DNA from: Torulaspora globosa
Lineage: Eukaryota > Ascomycota > Saccharomycetes > Saccharomycetales > Saccharomycetaceae
Assembly (NCBI RefSeq): GCF_014133895.1
Contig: NC_050727.1
Coordinates: 1-64,000 of the forward strand
Direction of reading: 5' to 3'
Length of the DNA: 64,000 bases
In this document: positions 38,065 through 60,427 of the stretch, piece by piece
Numbering within the stretch: the stretch's first letter is position 1
Layout of the letters: every line of letters starts with the position of its first letter
Notes under the pieces: generated by a model
Told to the model about the DNA's origin: nothing
The model's database searches: none
What the model saw: only the letters and a program-made list of their open reading frames with translations
Translations under genes and position numbers: made by a program

Positions 38065-38994
38065 ATGCGTTTCTCTACTCTCGCTACTGGATTGCTGCTA
38101 GCTGCCACGCAGGTCGCCGCCGTCGGCGACCTGGGTTTCAACCTGGGTGTGAAAAACAACGACGGCACCTGTAAGAGCACGTCTGACTTCGAGGCAGACT
38201 TGGATGTGTTGAAGCCATACGGCGACGTTGTGAAGATCTATGCGGTGTCCGACTGCAACACGTTGCAGAACCTGGGCCCTGCTGTGGAAAACAAGGGCTT
38301 CCGTGTGTTCTTGGGGGTGTGGCCCAACGACGACGCGCACTTCGAGGCCGAGAAGAACGCGTTGAAGACATACTTGCCGGAGTTAAAGACCTCCACGGTT
38401 GCCGGTATTCTTGTCGGCTCCGAGGCGCTGTACCGTGGGGATCTCACCGCGCCTGAGCTGGCCGACAAGATCAACGACGTCAAGAGCACTGTCGCCGGCA
38501 TCCAGGGCTCCGACGGCAAGTCGTACTCCGGTGTGCAGGTCGGTACCGTCGACTCCTGGAACGTGCTGGTCGCAGGTTACAATGCGCCAGCCATCGAGGC
38601 CAGTGACATCGTGATGGCCAACGCCTTCTCGTACTGGCAAGGCCAGGCGATGAACAACGCCTCGTACTCCTTCTTCGACGACATCATGCAGGCGTTGCAG
38701 ACCATCCAGACCGTCAAGGGCACCACCGACATCAGCTTCTGGGTCGGTGAGACTGGCTGGCCAACCGGCGGAACCAACTTCGGAGCTGCCTACCCATCCG
38801 TCCAGAATGCGCAGCAGTTCTGGCAGGAGGGCGTTTGCGCCATGAGAGGCTGGGGCGTCAACGTGATCGCCTTCGAGGCCTTCGACGAGGACTGGAAGCC
38901 AGACACCTCTGGTATCTCCGACGTCGAGAAGCACTGGGGTATCTGGACCTCGGACAAGAGTTTGAAGTACAACATAACCTGCAGCTTCGATTAA
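38065..38994 (+). CDS. BGL2: Cell-wall endo-beta-1,3-glucanase/glucanosyltransferase (GH17)
   Basis: 309 residues with a signal peptide (MRFSTLATGLLLAATQVAA, cleavage near residue 19), secreted to the cell wall, where it cuts and rejoins beta-1,3-glucan chains. GH17 barrel landmarks are LGFNLGVKNNDGTCK, VKIYAVSDCNTLQNL, the acid/base Glu in GSEALYRG (about residue 119) and the nucleophile Glu in WVGETGWPTGG (about residue 229). Length matches Bgl2 (about 313), not the longer Scw4/Scw10. TATAAA at 37933-37938. The very uniform codon choice indicates high expression. It follows the methyltransferase gene, as YGR282C follows YGR283C. Confidence 0.96.
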   Translation: MRFSTLATGLLLAATQVAAVGDLGFNLGVKNNDGTCKSTSDFEADLDVLKPYGDVVKIYAVSDCNTLQNLGPAVENKGFRVFLGVWPNDDAHFEAEKNALKTYLPELKTSTVAGILVGSEALYRGDLTAPELADKINDVKSTVAGIQGSDGKSYSGVQVGTVDSWNVLVAGYNAPAIEASDIVMANAFSYWQGQAMNNASYSFFDDIMQALQTIQTVKGTTDISFWVGETGWPTGGTNFGAAYPSVQNAQQFWQEGVCAMRGWGVNVIAFEAFDEDWKPDTSGISDVEKHWGIWTSDKSLKYNITCSFD

Positions 38995-39255
38995 GCGGTC
39001 TCGCCGGCCCCCCGCTGCTACTACTTATGATATCCCACTACGTTTTTTCTTGATTCTTCTGGCCCGCGAATGGACCGTATATAGCTCTTTTAAAGCCCTT
39101 TTTGAACAAGACATTAGCCGGCACCTGTGTTGGCGGTCCGGGATCCACCAACCGATGTAGCCCCAGCTAAGGTCTACCTTACGACCCACCTTGGTTCGAT
39201 GGCTCGAAATCGGTATTATTCTCAGTTACGTGTAAGATGATTTTTCATCGATGCG

Positions 39256-39274
39256 CAGGCTTGTTCAATGAGTA
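39256..39274 (+). repeat. hAT-1 left terminal inverted repeat
   Basis: 19 bases starting CAGGC, exact inverse of 42422-42440. Preceded directly by the target duplication TCGATGCG (39248-39255). Confidence 0.96.
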
Positions 39275-39744
39275 TCATAATGTACGGAATTAACGGGTTA
39301 CCTGCTATTTCTCTTTATTTACGATCATCGAGTACTTGAAACCGGACCTCGTTATTGACGTGATTTTGTTTGAGTACTCATTTTTGAGAAATATATTTAC
39401 CTGATTGCCTACCCGTTTGCAATTTATACGTTTTTCAAGAGGCTGCAACAACATCAATCAATTCATGTTTAGCCGCTTAACACACTTTTATAAAACATTT
39501 AACACTTTTATAAGAAAACAATTCAGACTCACTGTATTCAAAGGATGATAGGTAATTCGATCCATAGAGTACTGTCTAGTATAGTTTCAGATCAATCCCG
39601 AGTCTCAGGGCACCTCATAGGGTCAGAAACCCTAAATCAACGCGTGAAGTATAAATTTTGGCGAAAACGCGTCAACATCAGAAAACTTCACAACTTTGGT
39701 CGTTACTTACAAGAGATCATCATATAAATCATCAGTGTGAAAAT

Positions 39745-42207
39745 ATGTCAGGTGCTAGCACTCATGCAACCCCGATTGTTATCCAGCAAGATATGCCGTT
39801 TACAAATACTTCAAGCCTAAGCGCTCCTATTCCTTCGCGTTCATGCCCGGCAACACCAGCTGAAATGGTCAGATCTACCCCGAACACAACGTTGAAGGTC
39901 AAGAAAAGTCCAAAGAAAAGCCCCTCACGTTGGATGGAGCGATCATCTTTCAAGATACATTTTACCCTCCTGAATTTGAACAACAAAAAGAGAGCCAAAT
40001 GTATTTACTGTGGGAAGATGTTTAAAGAGGGAGAATCGACCGGAAACTTGTCAAAGCATATTACTGCTGTCCATCCCAGTGCTATAAAGAGCAAGAAACC
40101 GAAAGTAAGCAAAGAGCAAACTCTGGATATGCTTCCCAGGAGATCGAAGTCGCTCAGACTGAGCGACTCTCTGGTGCAGGAATGCCAGAAAAACCCTGAG
40201 ATTCTAGAAACGCTACTTTTGATATCGGAGGGCTTTTTACCCTTCAACTTTGTAAGGCTTCTAAGTTGGGGGATGATAAACCGAAGGCACGCAGCCAATG
40301 CCTTCATCCAATCAAGAACAACGCTATCGACCAAAATTAACCTTTTTAAAAGATACCTGAATGAGACGCTGCATTACAACTTAAAAGACACCACCATGGT
40401 TAATATTCAGTTGGATATATGGACCTCTCCTAGCAATATTTCATTTCTCGCGGTAATGGTTTCTTTTGCTCCGAATATCCTCAATATGGAATCACTGGAA
40501 CTGGCCAATGATGCGAAAATTCTACTGAACAACCGAGGGGAATCCCGCAACTGTCATTTACTAGAGTTTGTTAGTCTGGGGCATAAGCGACACACTGGTT
40601 TAAACATATACAAGGTTTTCAAGGAGATTTTACATAGACATGACCTTGTTGACAAGCTTGGAACTATAACCATGGACAACGCTACAAATAATGAGTCTTT
40701 TCACAAGAGTCTTGTCTATGACTACTTGAACACAATAAAGCCTTCTGGACATCAAATGTTGGGCAAAGTTCGCTTTATCCGTTGCGCTAACCATGTGTTA
40801 AATTTGATCTTCGGGAGAATCATAAAGAGTTTGTGTGAAGACCTCTTATTTGCCGACGCCTTCAGTAAAGTGACCAAGCTGGCGAAAATCATGAGGCGCT
40901 CAACTGCGGTCAATGCAAGTTTGAAAGAACATGGTATACCACTTATACCATATGAATCACAAACCAGATGGATTTATACCTGGAGACAAGTTACTGTTTT
41001 TTTACAAAATTATGCAGCCTATTCGAAATGGTTCGAAGCACTCGACACAGAATCCCATACTCACATCATCAATCGAGTCCAGAGTATCATAGCATTTGAG
41101 GAAAAGACAATTCAAATGCTGACATACTTCGTTGAGTGCTGTGATATATTCGGTGAACTGAATTTCACATTTCAGAATGATGAGATTAACAATCTCCCTC
41201 AAGGCGTTCCTCTTTACTACCTACTAGGTCACTACTACAAACTGTGCTTGAGTGCGTTTGCCGGAAACCATATTCCTAAAACTCCAGGTATGGATTTCTC
41301 TTATTTCAATGGCCCAGAGTATCTATCTTTGGATGATAAAAGAATTGTTCTTCAAGCAATCAAAGATTCCTACGGCTGCTACCAAGACTACTTATCTCAT
41401 ATCCAGGTGAATCCTTTGTTCTACGTTGCAGTGATCCTAGATCCAACGGCAAAACAAGACAAGCTTTATGAAATAATGGAAGACGAGGAGTTCACGGTTA
41501 GAATAAGCGAAGTTAACTCATTCATGCGCAACTACCTGAAAGTACAGAGGTTTAGCTGTGTTACGGAACAGGAGCGGAAAAAGATTCCTAAAGCTCCTAG
41601 CCATAAAAACCTGCTGTCGTTTAATATACGTGTCGCACCTGATCCGTCGAGGCATACCGGATCGGCTGCCATGGAAGCTGAGTGCAATGATGGAAGTCTT
41701 GAAGAATGGGTAAAATATCAGAGAGAGCCTGTAATCGCAGGAAACTCTAGACAGGAAGCGATAAAATGGTGGTATGACTACCGCCATACTTATCCGATGC
41801 TTTTTAAATTGGCAATGTCTTTGTTCTACACCAAGTTTACCTCCTGTGATGTGGAAAGGTGTTTCTCGCTCGCTGGCAGGGTTGTTAGGAAAGATCGAGC
41901 ACGTTTAAGTCACAATAACATAGGAACGTTGATGATTTTAAGGGATCGATTTTCAAATTTTGGTTTTTATAATGGCGGCCTAGTATCCGATGCTATCTTG
42001 GATGATGATGATTTCGATATTAACCTTGACGATACTACTTACGTTGACTCTCTTCCGGACGTTCCAGACCACGAGCGAGAAGACAGCGACGATGCCATTT
42101 TTGAAGAATGGCCACAAGAATCCTGGTCTCCAGAAACTCCCACTGCTCCCCGGACACCCGAGGATTCTCTTCGACAGGCTACAGATAGTCCTACACCTGT
42201 GGGCTGA
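39745..42207 (+). CDS. hAT-1 transposase
   Basis: 820 residues from the first in-frame ATG (39745); the frame is open further up only to a TTG. A disordered Ser/Thr/Pro-rich start is followed by a BED zinc finger (CIYC...LSKHITAVH, about residues 85-110), then an RNase H-like catalytic core with QLDIWTSPS (first Asp), TMDNATNN (second Asp), and CANHVLNLIF with the C-x-x-H motif of hAT enzymes. The insertion domain follows, and the C-terminal hAT dimerisation region WYDYRHTYPMLFKLA...FTSCDVERCFSLAG...RARLSHNNIGTLMILRDRF (about 672-740) contains the third acidic residue in DVER. It ends in an acidic tail. All hallmarks and the full frame are present, so catalytic activity is plausible. Confidence 0.93.
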   Translation: MSGASTHATPIVIQQDMPFTNTSSLSAPIPSRSCPATPAEMVRSTPNTTLKVKKSPKKSPSRWMERSSFKIHFTLLNLNNKKRAKCIYCGKMFKEGESTGNLSKHITAVHPSAIKSKKPKVSKEQTLDMLPRRSKSLRLSDSLVQECQKNPEILETLLLISEGFLPFNFVRLLSWGMINRRHAANAFIQSRTTLSTKINLFKRYLNETLHYNLKDTTMVNIQLDIWTSPSNISFLAVMVSFAPNILNMESLELANDAKILLNNRGESRNCHLLEFVSLGHKRHTGLNIYKVFKEILHRHDLVDKLGTITMDNATNNESFHKSLVYDYLNTIKPSGHQMLGKVRFIRCANHVLNLIFGRIIKSLCEDLLFADAFSKVTKLAKIMRRSTAVNASLKEHGIPLIPYESQTRWIYTWRQVTVFLQNYAAYSKWFEALDTESHTHIINRVQSIIAFEEKTIQMLTYFVECCDIFGELNFTFQNDEINNLPQGVPLYYLLGHYYKLCLSAFAGNHIPKTPGMDFSYFNGPEYLSLDDKRIVLQAIKDSYGCYQDYLSHIQVNPLFYVAVILDPTAKQDKLYEIMEDEEFTVRISEVNSFMRNYLKVQRFSCVTEQERKKIPKAPSHKNLLSFNIRVAPDPSRHTGSAAMEAECNDGSLEEWVKYQREPVIAGNSRQEAIKWWYDYRHTYPMLFKLAMSLFYTKFTSCDVERCFSLAGRVVRKDRARLSHNNIGTLMILRDRFSNFGFYNGGLVSDAILDDDDFDINLDDTTYVDSLPDVPDHEREDSDDAIFEEWPQESWSPETPTAPRTPEDSLRQATDSPTPVG

Positions 42208-42412
42208 CAGACACACCTTAAGTGTGAATCCTAGATGCTTCGCTAAATTTCGTGTAAAGTAATACATCCTAAATCGTGACCCACGAATAATACTCAGAAA
42301 CTACCCAATTTGTGAATAGTGATAAACTCATAATTACTCACACTCTCTACGATGAGTGGGTTTCGCGCATACCCATTACTCGAAATGGCGCTACCGAGTT
42401 GGAGCAGAGCTA

Positions 42413-42420
42413 TTACCCGG
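42413..42420 (+). promoter_or_regulatory. Reb1-type site inside the right end of hAT-1
   Basis: TTACCCGG, an exact Reb1 core, lies 20 bp from the right tip of the transposon and 160 bp before the NIP1 start codon. It could open chromatin over the NIP1 promoter. Effect inferred only. Confidence 0.4.
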
Positions 42421-42421
42421 T

Positions 42422-42440
42422 TACTCATTGAACAAGCCTG
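42422..42440 (-). repeat. hAT-1 right terminal inverted repeat
   Basis: Exact inverse of 39256-39274, followed directly by the second copy of TCGATGCG (42441-42448). Confidence 0.96.
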
Positions 42441-42580
42441 TCGATGCGGTACGGAAAAATTTTACCAGGGCAGTGAACGGTTAGAGATGAGGGAAAGAAA
42501 GTACCATCACTATAGCACAAAGGCAGGTCTAGAGATCGTTCACGGGAGCTAGAATCGAAGTCATACACTATTGTGGAACC

Positions 42581-45007
42581 ATGTCTCGTTTTTTTGCAGC
42601 CAATTATGACTATGATAGTGCAAGTTCATCATCAGAAGAGGACTTACTGTCCTCATCTGATGAGGAATCACTAAATTCTTCTTTGAGCGAAGGGGAGGAG
42701 GAATCCGATGATTCCTTTTTCAACGATTCTGAGTCTGAGTCTGACATCGACTCGGATGATTCGGAGGGCAGACCTTACGGACCCGATTGGTTCAAGAAAG
42801 CAGAGTTCAGAAAGGGTGGGACTAACAAATTCTTGAAAGGTGCCAACTATTCAGATTCGGAATCGGAGGATGAAGGCAAGAAAGTGGTCAAGTCGGCCAA
42901 GGAGAAGTTGTTGGATGAGATGCAAGCCGTCTACTCAAGTATCGAGAATGCTGAAATGACGCAGGACTGGGTGACGATCTTGGCAGAGCTGGACAATATC
43001 TCACGTCTCCTGATCAGAGCCCAACAACAGAACTACGGTACCCCAAACATTTTCATCAAGGTCTTGGCGCAGATCGAGGATGCGGTGACAGACGCAGAGC
43101 AAGCCGATATCAAAAACAAGGCTGTTGCCAGGGCCTACAACACGACAAAGCAAAGAGTTAGAAAGGTGGCAAGGGAAAACGAGGGTTTGCTTGCTAAATT
43201 TAGAGAGAACCCAGAATCCTTCGATAAGGAAAATACTGCCGATCTTGGCGCCGAAGACCGTGAGGCAACTCCAATTTTCGGTAAGAAAGGTATTAACCTG
43301 TCATCTTTGGCCACAGCTTCCTCGGAAGTTGGATTTTTCTCCGCTCTACGAATCGTGTTGGATACTAGAGGTAAGAAAAGTGTTGACCAATATGGTTTAA
43401 TCAAGACTATGCAGGAATTGCTCGAGATCGCCAAAACACCTTACGAGACGATAATGGCTTATCTAACTCTAATTCCAATCAGGTTCGACGCTTCTGCAAA
43501 TCTTTCGTATCAGCCAATTGAGCAATGGAAGGCAGCTTACAGCGAAACACTCAGACTTTTAGAGATACTGAATGAGCACATCGATACTTATCAGGTTTCA
43601 GAGTTGGCTGAGCGGAACGAGTTCATCGAGGATGAGCCCCAAGCCGACGCTAACGGAGTTAAGAAGATTTTGGGCTCTGTTTTCTCATTTGTTGAGAGGC
43701 TTGATGATGAATTTAACAAATCTTTGTTGAACACTGATCCCCACTCAAGTGATTATTTGGTCCGCCTAAGAGATGAGCAATTAATTTACAATTTGATTTT
43801 GAGGACACAAATTTACCTCGAGGCTACTCTTCCCGAAGAAGAAAGGGAAAGACTTTTGGCACGTCCTTTGGTTAAAAGGTTGGATCACATCTACTACAAA
43901 TCAACCTCGCTGATTAGCATAATCGAGAGCAACGCTTGGAAAAGTCTGCCATCTAATTTCACTTCCAGTTATGTTCCTTTCAATGGTATCGCCGATGACA
44001 AGTATGTCACGAACCTAGTTGGAACATTAGCTGACAGTTTACGCAAACATAAGAATGGTGGGTTACGGAAGCGTGCCGTGCTTTATCAAGTGTACTTCAC
44101 TGCCTTGAATATTGATTTCAGCACCGCCAAAGATATGTTGATTGAATCGAAAGTTCAGACCTATATCAACAATTCTGATCCTTCCCTGCAAATTCTATTC
44201 AACAGAGTGGTTGTGCAACTTGGTTTGGCAGCATTTAAACTATGCTTGATTGAAGACTGTCATCAGGTTCTAAACGAATTGCTAGCAAGCTCGCATTTGC
44301 GCGAGATCCTCGGTCAACAAACATTGCAAAGGATCTCGGCTAATGTGGGATCGTCAACTAGTGCAGATGAACGTGAACAACTGTGCTTGCCTTACCATCA
44401 ACATATCAACCTAGATCTAATCGATCTTGTTTTCATGACATGCTCGCTTTTGATAGAAGTACCCCAGATGACGGCATTCTATTCGGGCATCAAAGTGAAA
44501 AGAATTCCCTACTCCCAGAAATCCATTCGCCGCGCCTTAGAGCACTATGATAAATCGGCATTCCAGGGGCCACCGGAGACACTGAGAGACTATGTTTTGC
44601 ATGCTGCTAAGTCGATGCAGAAGGGTGATTGGAAAAAGTGTAACTTTTACTTGAGGTCCATCCCTACATGGAAGTTGTTATCCAATGCAGACACTGTGTT
44701 GGAGAGCCTTGCCGAGAGGGTTCAAATCGGATCATTGAAAACATTCTTTTTCACTTATAAGAGGTTCTACGACAAAATTTCTTTGAGCAAACTATCAGAA
44801 CTCTTTAACGTTCCACAGGAAAAGGTCGTGGAGATTATGGAGTTTGTCATTGCAGAATATGACATTGACGCTAGATTGGACGGAAACAAGAGCACCGTTA
44901 TTGTTGAAGGCGACGAAATAACTAAATTGGAAGAGGTCGCCTTGAAATTGAACAAGGAAGTAAAAATTGCAAAAGAACGCTTGAACCCAACCGCTGGTCG
45001 TCGTTAA
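42581..45007 (+). CDS. NIP1: Translation initiation factor eIF3 subunit c
   Basis: 808 residues (S. cerevisiae Nip1 812). An essential eIF3 core subunit that binds eIF1 and eIF5 and helps assemble the 43S preinitiation complex. The N-terminal 90 residues are Ser/Asp/Glu-rich ([17 protein letters not shown]...), the eIF1/eIF5-binding tail. A helical-repeat body follows (residues about 110-580), and a C-terminal PCI domain ends in a winged helix ([42 protein letters not shown], about 700-750). It corresponds to YMR309C. Its upstream region is cut at -132 by the hAT-1 insertion; what remains holds no perfect TATA box. Confidence 0.97.
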
Positions 45008-56973: not shown

Positions 56974-56991
56974 CACTGGGGACGAATACGA
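56974..56991 (+). repeat. hAT-2 left terminal inverted repeat
   Basis: 18 bases starting CACTGGGG, exact inverse of 60410-60427, followed by GAATAC subterminal repeats. Confidence 0.9.
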
Positions 56992-57247
56992 CGAATACAG
57001 AAAAATGGCCTGCGAATACAATATTCTTGGAATTTCGTGAATAACATCACTTTGCACGCGAATAAAATCATTCTCTACGTGAATACAATCACGTTCGACG
57101 GAAAACACACGTAGCCGCTGATATACAATGGTCCAAAGGCCAAAGGTATAAGCTATAGCTAGTCCATGATTGGGATCTATTAGAAAGGTCGTGGGTATAT
57201 AGGAGCTATAGTAGCATAGTTTTATTTTCAAGAGCGACCACAGGAAA

Positions 57248-60205
57248 TCATTCCTCTTCCTCACTAGAATCGCTGTCTGAGTAAATTGGAATGTATAACG
57301 GTGAATCTTCAGTTCCTGCTGGACATACATCAGTGATTTCTGGCTCAGTTTCCTCATCCTGAATCCACTGCTCTACCGGAATATCATCAATTTTCTGTAA
57401 ACCATGACCCATTCCAAAACACTTGAGTCGGTTACGCAGAACCATTGTGCGTTTCAGATTCGTACTTGACAATGAGAACCTATTCTCCAGTGCTGTCTTG
57501 CTGATCGAAAAAAATCTTTCTACATGAGCCGATGATAGCTTTGTATAATAGAAAGATAGAGCCAATTCAAACAAACCTGGATATCTATCTTGATTTGCGA
57601 TCCAATAATCGAGGTAACTAATGTCAGTTTGAATCGGTTCTTCCAGGTAACACTCCCATTCATTTTTGGAGTTTATAGCATTAACATACTTGCGTCTATG
57701 TCTACGCAGTTGCTTGAAAACCTTATAGCTTCTGCTGCGTGGATCCAAGGCAGCACGGGTTAAATCTTTTTGTACCTGACGGCTCCTGTTTTCTTTTACT
57801 CTATTCCTGAAATTGAACAGATAGTAATCCACATATCTTTCAGAAAGATCCAAAATCTGTTGCTGAAAGTCCTCTTCGAAAGCACTCTTGAGGATCGCAG
57901 TTTTGCAAAATGGTTGCAAAAGATGCGCTACCCAATATCCTGGTTCGGCAAGAGCAAGGCTCATGTATTTCTTAAACTTGGGATATGCGTCTTCGATGAT
58001 TGCAAGTAGATGGGTTAGTACGCTTGGTTCCACGGAAGATAAATGCCTCTTTTTAAGACCTAAAATTCGCAAATGATCGACTTTAGTTGAGCCATTCCTT
58101 ACTTCCCTGCATGATTTGAAAAAATCGTCAATTTGAAGATAGTATTCAATGCCATTTGGTAGATTATCGAGCATGTCATCCTGTAGCAGCATTGTGTACT
58201 CATCGAATATTCGAGTTAGACGAAGAAATATCTTCAGAACCTCTATTTCAGACGGCTCGTAACAGAATAAGGACAGATCATCCGATGTGAGCTGGAATCG
58301 CTTGTCCAATCGATTCTCGAAGTAAAAATCCTTCAGAGGTCCTGTCAGCTTTAAAAACACGGAAAGCTGCCTATAACGGGATACAAACCGAGTACAATTA
58401 TACCTTGGGATCGTTTTCGGAGTAAACTCCCTCAACTTATTTCTGATGAAGACATTTCTCTTCAAAATTACAGTTAATCGATCTATTCTGGATAATAAAG
58501 AGCTCTCAGATTTCTCAAATCCAGCCATTACATCTTGGAAAACTCGGTTTAGTAGATGATTCATGCATCTTACTTTTACTAATCCTCCCTCCTTATTAAC
58601 TCCTGGTGCGCCTTTAATGTCATGATCCAGCTCGCTAAGCATGGAGATGTTGTTGGAACCACTGTCAACAGTAACACTGCTGATTTTGCTTCCAATTGAG
58701 AAGCTTCTTAACGATCTCAATAAAGCCTCCTTCAAATTACTGCCTGTATGTCTTTCTTCGCTTAAATCCACAAAATCTATAATGTGAACATTTGGAGTTC
58801 CATTGGTTGTCACATCTCGGATAGTTAATCTGTCTCTGCCTCTGCGCAAATTAGGGCAGAACGAGACAAGAATAGCCAGATAGCTCTTTTGATTCGAGGA
58901 AGTCCACATGTCTAGAATAATATTGTAATTTAAAGACTTTCTCAGCGTATCTCTCATTTGAAGGTTAAATTGCTCCTCATATTTCTCCATCGTAGATACT
59001 AATCCCTTCCTCGAGGAAATGTAATTATGACTTCTGGCACCGGAACACTCCAAAAGTTTCTTGAAAGCGGGAGCTTCGGCCGTACTAAAAGGAATAATAG
59101 TCTCAATGAACAGATTCAGTTGGTTTATCCTGAGCTCGTTCGCGTACATGAAATTTAGCAGCTCGCGTCTGAGCCCAAATGGCTTCTTATTTATTGAAAG
59201 CACCCCTTTGATATCACTAAGCTGCGGTTGGCTCTTTTTCAGCTTCGTGCTAAACAGCTCAAAATCCTGTCTATGGTTTCTTCTGAGGTGTACGATGATG
59301 TTGAACGAGGTCGGATTGCCTTTGAGTGTAAAAACATGTCTGCAATCGCCATACTTACAGATGGCGTGCGGTTCAGGTGCAGCGTATTTGGTAACCCAAA
59401 TACGATAAGGAGATGTCTTAAGCCACGACTCTAGCTTTGCCAGATCACTTTCTGGCACGTTTCGCTCAGTAGTATGTTCAATATCTGGTTTATCGAAAGG
59501 ATTCATGGAAAATTCGTCAAACCCGAACTTATATTTGCTTTTGAATGCTTCCTCCAAGCTTAAAGTTCCCGCTTCGTCACTCTCGCTGGCTGATGTTTGA
59601 TTGCCATGTTCCTCGCTGCTCTCTGTTGAATCTGTAGAGTTGTGACTGTAAAATTGCTCAGGCTGAAGAGACATATCATGATGTCCTGGACCGTAAGCCA
59701 AGTTGTTAGTCGGAAAATTTATTATCTGTCGGATTGTTGACGTACCCAATCGTTGCAGTGGCCTCCCAGACAGATCTTGCGTCACAATGATGGAATTTTC
59801 CTGCGACTCTTGAGGGAGGGACACTCTCTGATTAAATTCCGTCGGTTCTTCTTTATCAGCAGCACTAGTCAAACGTTGTCTCATTTCAATCTGGCCTTTT
59901 TCCGTTTCGGAGCTATGTTCAGTTTGCATGCCACTTGGTAATGAATGGATATGGTCAATAGATCTATCTGAGAACTGGTTTCCATCCTGCTGATCATTTC
60001 CTGAAATCTTATCAATTTGATTGCTGTCGAAGAAATTCTGTCCATCTAACGGATCTTCTAAGGCATTCCCAGGGCTGTCAGAAACGAGGGTATCAGAGCA
60101 ACTAGGCTCGTCAAGGGAGTTTCTTCTCGTCTTGTCGCCCTTGCTTGTAGCACCGCTATTCAGTTGTTTGTAATTGTGCTTTTTTCTAGTTCTGAGATTA
60201 TACAT
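57248..60205 (-). CDS. hAT-2 transposase
   Basis: 985 residues, ATG at 60205. A long polar N-terminal region (about 270 residues) precedes a BED-type finger with C-x4-C and H-x4-H (CKYGDC...HLRRNH, about 285-312). The RNase H-like core shows ILDMWTSSNQKSYLAILVSF (first Asp), TVDSGSNN (second Asp) and CMNHLLNRVF (C-x-x-H). The hAT dimerisation region is DYWIANQDRYPGLFELALSFYYTKLSSAHVERFFSIS...LSSTNLKRTMVLRNRL (about 855-925), with the third acidic residue in HVER. An acidic Ser/Glu tail (DSDSSEEEE) ends it. Block order matches hAT-1 but identity is low. The frame is fully open. Either the element is still competent or the protein has been kept for a host role; the sequence alone does not decide. 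Confidence 0.9.
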   Translation of the reverse strand: MYNLRTRKKHNYKQLNSGATSKGDKTRRNSLDEPSCSDTLVSDSPGNALEDPLDGQNFFDSNQIDKISGNDQQDGNQFSDRSIDHIHSLPSGMQTEHSSETEKGQIEMRQRLTSAADKEEPTEFNQRVSLPQESQENSIIVTQDLSGRPLQRLGTSTIRQIINFPTNNLAYGPGHHDMSLQPEQFYSHNSTDSTESSEEHGNQTSASESDEAGTLSLEEAFKSKYKFGFDEFSMNPFDKPDIEHTTERNVPESDLAKLESWLKTSPYRIWVTKYAAPEPHAICKYGDCRHVFTLKGNPTSFNIIVHLRRNHRQDFELFSTKLKKSQPQLSDIKGVLSINKKPFGLRRELLNFMYANELRINQLNLFIETIIPFSTAEAPAFKKLLECSGARSHNYISSRKGLVSTMEKYEEQFNLQMRDTLRKSLNYNIILDMWTSSNQKSYLAILVSFCPNLRRGRDRLTIRDVTTNGTPNVHIIDFVDLSEERHTGSNLKEALLRSLRSFSIGSKISSVTVDSGSNNISMLSELDHDIKGAPGVNKEGGLVKVRCMNHLLNRVFQDVMAGFEKSESSLLSRIDRLTVILKRNVFIRNKLREFTPKTIPRYNCTRFVSRYRQLSVFLKLTGPLKDFYFENRLDKRFQLTSDDLSLFCYEPSEIEVLKIFLRLTRIFDEYTMLLQDDMLDNLPNGIEYYLQIDDFFKSCREVRNGSTKVDHLRILGLKKRHLSSVEPSVLTHLLAIIEDAYPKFKKYMSLALAEPGYWVAHLLQPFCKTAILKSAFEEDFQQQILDLSERYVDYYLFNFRNRVKENRSRQVQKDLTRAALDPRSRSYKVFKQLRRHRRKYVNAINSKNEWECYLEEPIQTDISYLDYWIANQDRYPGLFELALSFYYTKLSSAHVERFFSISKTALENRFSLSSTNLKRTMVLRNRLKCFGMGHGLQKIDDIPVEQWIQDEETEPEITDVCPAGTEDSPLYIPIYSDSDSSEEEE

Positions 60206-60409
60206 TGAAACTAATCGAAGCCACCTAAGCTATCCTATTCAGGGACCAGACATGGTAGCATGGAAGTGATGAAGTTGTTGATTGAAGTCAACGTTTTACG
60301 TTCGCTTCTCACTTAACGTGTAGAGATGTATTCGCGTTTGTATTCGGCCAATGTTGGTGTTATTCGAGCTTGTATTCATCACTCAATACGTTGTATTTGG
60401 GCTATGTAT

Positions 60410-60427
60410 TCGTATTCGTCCCCAGTG
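60410..60427 (-). repeat. hAT-2 right terminal inverted repeat
   Basis: Exact inverse of 56974-56991, preceded by TATTCG subterminal repeats (about 60325-60410). Confidence 0.9.

Follow-up and report, generated by a model that had tools for sequence, protein, structure and literature searches.

The first 64,000 nucleotides of contig NC_050727.1 of the yeast Torulaspora globosa (the window) contain a hAT transposon inserted between a BGL2-like GH17 gene and NIP1, the gene for eIF3c (Table 1). An earlier reading of this DNA, referred to here as the original prediction, had placed a structurally perfect element between these two genes, and its structural claims were borne out: the 19-nt terminal inverted repeats (TIRs) are 100% complementary, the same 8-bp target-site duplication (TSD), TCGATGCG, stands at both ends, and subtracting the element and 8 bp from the 3,586 bp at 38995-42580 leaves the 393-bp gap that had been claimed. 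The transposase is encoded by one uninterrupted open reading frame (ORF) with no internal stops, in which the BED finger (Pfam zf-BED, PF02892, 30.2 bits, cut-off 20.6) and the dimerisation region (Dimer_Tnp_hAT, PF05699, 43.9 bits, cut-off 21.4) were detected and the three catalytic residues, CxxH (347/350) and RW (408/409) are all in place on alignment. The protein has a Hermes-like fold, an RNase H-fold DDE with the catalytic D, D and E. With an 8-bp TSD, short TIRs, DDE catalytic residues, a BED finger and a dimerisation region all present, the hAT identity stands. Among relatives that bear a Rover name, the nearest by BLASTP identity are Rover4 proteins (36–43%), followed by Rover and Rover5 (28–33%). 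On the element itself the original prediction was supported; it missed a fixed spacing to host Abf1-type sites, a Reb1 motif in the right end and a second hAT element in the window.

Table 1 Positions of the features discussed, counted from the first base of the window
Feature	Position	Strand	Detail
BGL2-like GH17 gene	38065..38994	+	
Host Abf1 consensus ATCATCTTACACG	39229..39241	-	14 bp from left terminus, 6 bp from TSD
Gap, Abf1-type site to TSD	39242..39247		6 bp
Left TSD	39248..39255		TCGATGCG
hAT transposon (Rover4-like)	39256..42440	+	3,185 bp
Left TIR	39256..39274	+	CAGGCTTGTTCAATGAGTA
Abf1 consensus in left end	39274..39286	+	ATCATAATGTACG, element position 19
Published Abf1 core match	39311..39323	+	CTCTTTATTTACG, element position 56
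Published Abf1 core match	39348..39360	+	CTCGTTATTGACG, element position 93
Transposase ORF	39745..42207	+	820 aa; BED finger 71-111; D224, D311, E704; dimerisation region 657-734
Abf1 consensus in right end	42273..42285	+	ATCGTGACCCACG
Reb1-type motif CTATTACCCGG	42410..42420	+	Reb1 core TTACCCG at 42413-42419
Right TIR	42422..42440	-	
Right TSD	42441..42448		TCGATGCG
RRPE-like motif	42456..42463		AAAATTTT, kept between element and NIP1
PAC-like motif	42486..42491	+	GATGAG, kept between element and NIP1
NIP1 (eIF3c)	42581..45007	+	
Second hAT element (Rover1)	56974..60427		Transposase ORF 57248-60205, minus strand

The original prediction had proposed a genome search for further copies, and at least 16 DNA matches were returned from 9,281,121 bases in eight contigs (numbered with a C, with the window on C1), among them three full copies, on C1, C2 and C4, that are 100% identical over 3,185 bp. 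The identical copies on C2 and C4 each have a flanking duplication of their own (CTGATCAG, 8 bp, and ATGTCCATA, 9 nt), which is far beyond chance. Because the three copies are identical over their full length, and each has its duplication, the claim of a recent insertion held; the identity points to very recent movement, with gene conversion or an assembly effect as the alternatives, and with an intact-looking transposase the suggestion that the element may be active was a fair one. The copy at C4:285904-289088 is flanked by a 9-nt rather than an 8-nt duplication, and that of a miniature inverted-repeat transposable element (MITE) of the family on C5 also looks like 9, its two 9-bp flanks being alike at seven of nine positions (by eye). 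Another full copy, C6:861428-864582, is 95% identical with an 810-aa frame, a decayed copy at C6:500506-503481 is 86% identical, and MITEs or end fragments lie on C2, C5, C6 and C7. Between the C1 and C6 transposases (810 codons, 104 differences), the ratio of nonsynonymous to synonymous substitution rates was 0.36 (NG86) or 0.47 (YN00), which fits selection on the transposase. Domestication of the C1 copy was considered and rejected, since it has TIRs and TSDs and exists in several identical copies. As an element it is unremarkable, a new member of a known family, and Rover hATs have already been reported in Torulaspora.

Where the element inserts is less ordinary. Flanking DNA was scored out of 8 positions with the strict pattern RTCRYN5ACG, which we take to be the Abf1 consensus, at 14 intact termini, 100 offsets (0–99) and two polarities; termini that had lost the TIR were excluded (both ends of the old C6 copy, C5:504834, C7 and the right end of C5:509113), and the right end of the C2 MITE was taken at 324034. 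Exact matches (8/8) lie 14–15 bp outward, with the same polarity, at four of the 14 termini, and no further exact match occurs at offsets 0–99. At 7/8 or better there are nine matches, six of which are at outward 14–15 (6/14 termini), while the other three are two at inward 41, from a single flank that C5 and C6 have in duplicate, and one at inward 14, where the C6 site, a palindrome, is matched a second time. The published Abf1 core, CGTNNNNNRNGAB (PMC12305957), was found at outward 14–15 at 5/14 termini, and the two inward-41 matches recur. Reading outward from the terminus, the C1 copy has its 8-bp TSD, 6 bp and ATCATCTTACACG, the C2 copy an 8-bp TSD, 6 bp and ATCGCTTTAAACG, and the C4 copy a 9-bp TSD, 6 bp and GGCGCTTTGTACG, the distance from TSD to site being 6 bp in all three copies with clear duplications. 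The C5 MITE is followed by 15 bp and then GTCATAGTTCACG, and the C6 full copy has 14 bp and then CTCACTCTCTACG at its left end, within an older MITE, and 15 bp and then GTCACTAGTGACG at its right end. The RTCRY half is nearest the element, and the left (5′) end of the element faces the site in five of six cases. Most of the well-preserved copies thus share this spacing. The host has an ABF1 gene (PF04684, E 5.9e-119), and in yeast Abf1 acts to open promoters.

That an ordinary hAT element should show this association by chance in a small sample is very improbable. Only six insertion points fit, and they were found after looking, but when 14 intergenic points were drawn at random 20,000 times, two exact sites at one spacing occurred in 73 of the sets and three in none, as against four observed; with the published core, 208 of 20,000 random sets reached two, one reached three and none reached four. 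The positions of the copies relative to genes bear on a second explanation. The right end of the C1 copy is 140 bp before the NIP1 start codon, and two motifs between them, AAAATTTT and GATGAG, presumably correspond to RRPE and PAC. The C2 copy has its left end 152 bp before TIF5 (eIF5) and its right end 107 bp before EMC2, the right end of the old C6 copy (500506) is 146 bp before DIS3, the C5:504834 fragment is 113 bp before a PP2C gene, and the left end at C5:509449 is 143 bp before a small ORF that we take to be TIM11. The C4 copy lies 90 bp past the stop of a thioredoxin gene, which we take to be MPD1-like, and 744 bp before RRP36. NIP1, TIF5, DIS3 and RRP36 are essential in S. cerevisiae. 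In all, an element end is 107–152 bp from an ATG at 5 of 10 insertion loci, as would be expected from a plain preference for nucleosome-free promoter DNA, such as that described for Hermes (PMC7534453), with Abf1 sites nearby since they are common there. Such a preference leaves the constant spacing and polarity unexplained; none of the random sets of intergenic points came up to the counts seen here, and we regard it as a distinctly unlikely explanation.

Motifs of the same type are also present inside the element. The core sites of the left end, at element positions 19, 56 and 93, have a 37-bp spacing, and among seven left ends all three recur in the C6 copy, two in the C2 MITE, one each in C7 and C5:509, and none in the C5 MITE and the old C6 copy. 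Taken together, the window's two hAT elements have RTCRYN5ACG six times in 1,222 bp of noncoding end DNA, twice in the NIP1-side element and four times in Rover1, whereas six or more sites arose in 0/5,000 dinucleotide shuffles of both elements and four in 0/5,000 of Rover1 alone; among 2,880 permuted or re-spaced patterns it comes first in the ends, with six occurrences versus four for the next. It is conceivable, if unlikely, that the transposase itself, for example through its BED finger, reads an RTCRYN5ACG-like motif that Abf1 merely shares, and the sites at 19, 56 and 93 do face inward as the target site faces outward. Against this, the motif agrees with the published Abf1 core down to the five free positions, and host DNA outside the elements has the strict consensus enriched in promoters. 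Rover1, whose transposase is 27% identical to the 820-aa protein, also has the motif in its ends, yet of four termini examined, two in the window and one each on C3 and C5, none has an Abf1 site at 14–15.

In the right end, CTATTACCCGG is unchanged in all nine aligned right ends, including ends without a TIR, and it forms the longest invariant run, 11 in 110 columns (permutation P 0.0006, or 0.00075 with seven less redundant ends). It has 13 exact matches in the genome, compared to 4 for its reversed control, and 11 of the 13 are in right ends of the family. TTACCCG is a Reb1 site, and Reb1 has been proposed to block RNA polymerase II and to clear nucleosomes (PMC7618759). The host has a REB1 gene (PF21559 over cut-off; PDB 5eyb, E 6.5e-37), TTACCCGG has 261 matches genome-wide versus 192 for the reversed control, and in a sample of host DNA the Reb1 core was intergenic seven times and within an ORF once, with permuted 7-mers 34% intergenic. 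Both CTATTACCCGG and the Abf1-like end motifs may instead be transposase-binding subterminal repeats unrelated to host factors, given that such repeats at hAT ends matter for transposase activity (PMC10368747, PMC4763223) and that conservation extends to further blocks of the right end. We consider this rather doubtful, as another candidate repeat, TACTC/GAGTA, is available and as internal Abf1 sites that keep the consensus differ between copies at free or degenerate positions. TACTC/GAGTA occurs nine times in the 722 noncoding nt of the element versus three times in 2,463 coding nt, and nine compares to 1.5 expected (0/1,000 shuffles), yet some 5-mer was equally frequent in 339/1,000 shuffles.

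Several observations weigh against guidance by Abf1 and a functional role for these motifs. The data are from one genome with six fitting insertion points. A single rearranged element supplies two of these with its ends, and 2 of the 14 termini, the right end of the C5 MITE and the C6 MITE remnant, have the same duplicated flank. Attention fell on the pattern after seven motif patterns of six factors had been scanned, and the random test covered all offsets and polarities for Abf1 only. The C4 site carries one mismatch; the C2 MITE and C5:509449, which have intact ends, lack an Abf1 site at the 14–15-bp spacing, as do the four Rover1 termini examined; the broken C7 copy does not fit, its nearest consensus being 80 bp away; and for the broken old C6 copy and C5:504834 the BLAST match ends 18 and 7 bp from a consensus, which is not the exact spacing. 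The published core is mildly promoter-enriched in the host (0.79 per kb intergenic versus 0.45 in ORFs). Individual internal Abf1 sites have been lost in several copies, the ends of the NIP1-side element are by themselves weakly enriched, with two sites, a number reached by 65/5,000 shuffles, and 109 of 419 permuted 7-mers have as many intergenic matches as the Reb1 core. The fixed spacing is visible in the DNA itself, whereas bound Abf1 as the guide, and binding by Abf1 or Reb1, are inferred. On balance, we find it reasonably probable that the element is an autonomous hAT of the yeast Rover group that moved recently, with Abf1-guided integration and a conserved Reb1 motif at its right end.

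For such an element, the transposase would excise the DNA at the 19-bp TIRs and insert it at target cuts staggered by 8 (sometimes 9) bp, as in standard hAT chemistry, and Abf1 would steer integration to promoters, with the element landing 6 bp beyond an Abf1-type site. Before the insertion, an Abf1-type site was 147–159 bp before the NIP1 ATG (132 + 8 + 6 bp between); the insertion would have moved it from about −150 to its present place 3.3 kb upstream, and the Reb1 core of the element is now 162–168 bp before the ATG, with the motif at −168. The same arithmetic for EMC2 gives 114–126 bp for the old Abf1-type site and 129–135 bp for the new Reb1 core. With the Reb1 motif, the essential NIP1 may still have a promoter free of nucleosomes, and transposase transcripts may be halted at the motif before they reach the gene. 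Ac/Ds insertions are tolerated up to 35 bp and are thought to have cryptic promoter activity (PMC7599172), and it is therefore plausible that a promoter-opening site carried by the element explains the survival of the NIP1 insertion. The more specific scheme, in which the element contacts promoter-bound Abf1 at 6 bp, the host Abf1 site is taken for its 5′ end and the displaced gene receives a Reb1 site at close to the old distance from its ATG, is tentative and somewhat less likely to be right than wrong.

The second hAT element, Rover1, has 20-nt perfectly complementary arms (TIR CACTGGGGACGAATACGA) and an intact 985-aa transposase that is 44% identical to a Lachancea Rover1 protein. A TSD was looked for at its ends and not found, and one end is 124 bp before a G-patch gene. 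Three Abf1 consensus sites stand 21 bp apart in one of its ends (57046, 57067 and 57088, in the stretch 57046-57100); all three persist in the C3 copy, where the free bases have changed, one persists in the C2 copy, and none was found in the C5 stretch. A double Abf1 site at 21-bp spacing has six matches in the genome, three of them in the C1 and C3 Rover1 copies, and the C3 terminus has an exact Abf1 match at offset 26 (by eye). Fragments of both families lie within 5 kb on C5 (504834-509449).

The history of the C6 copy is more complex. At C6:861312-864582, the right end of the C5 MITE (C5:112334-112624) is followed by the full element, and 181 bp of flank are missing exactly at the element end. 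Since the spacing fits at both ends of this copy and a TSD is absent, two same-orientation insertions probably recombined with deletion of the DNA between them. C5 and C6 share an inverted duplicated segment, its two main pieces 88.7% and 94.7% identical, close to which are what we take to be Ty3-like pol fragments. In the broken right ends of C6:500506 and C5:504834, about 13 bp, made up of terminus and duplication, are seemingly gone (by eye), and an Abf1 consensus with matching polarity adjoins each of these ends.

Among relatives of the transposase, four Rover4 proteins of Lachancea mirantina are 40–43% identical over 87–90% of the query (BLASTP) and share the BED finger and all three catalytic residues; the likeness is one of transposase proteins only, across different genera. 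In six further Lachancea proteins (with Rover or Rover5 names, one unnamed), the BED finger residues, second aspartate and glutamate are kept in 6/6, and the absence of the first catalytic aspartate, the CxxH histidine and the RW pair in all six suggests that they are domesticated DNA-binding proteins. The best homologue in the other T. globosa strain, HG537_0H02090, shares 67% identity and has asparagine in place of both catalytic aspartates. We take HG536 to be T. globosa CBS 764. Assemblies of CBS 764 and CBS 2947 were made for PMC7282813.

The known systems resemble this element only in part. Tf1, Ty3 and Ty5 are tethered by Sap1, TFIIIB and Sir4, host factors that, once bound, likewise recruit integration or fix its distance, but the three are long terminal repeat (LTR) retrotransposons, whereas the T. 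globosa element would be a cut-and-paste hAT using Abf1. In the same genus, T. microellipsoides has 38 Rover elements with MITEs, a Rover hAT with intact, degenerate and MITE copies, and the announcement section on it mentions no insertion-site rule (PMC6025943). Kat1 of Kluyveromyces lactis is also a yeast hAT transposase, with activity dependent on TIRs and subterminal repeats (PMC4763223), but it is a domesticated host gene in mating-type switching, while the T. globosa element is a multicopy mobile element with TSDs. Hermes, a housefly hAT, favours nTnnnnAn and nucleosome-free DNA, unlike a fixed distance from a factor's site (PMC7534453). Among the papers listed in a literature search, none was seen to report Abf1- or Reb1-linked hAT insertion.

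hAT transposons are usually described as loose in their choice of site, and the insertion rule, if it holds, is a new variation on how they choose sites. With a fixed spacing to the motif of a general regulatory factor, this would be a cut-and-paste element with targeted integration, a counterpart of Ty3 or Tf1 among retrotransposons. The swap of promoter-opening sites, if true, would explain the survival of an insertion so close to an essential gene and might provide a transposon tool with predictable landing in promoters, and the element could live in essential-gene promoters without killing the cell.

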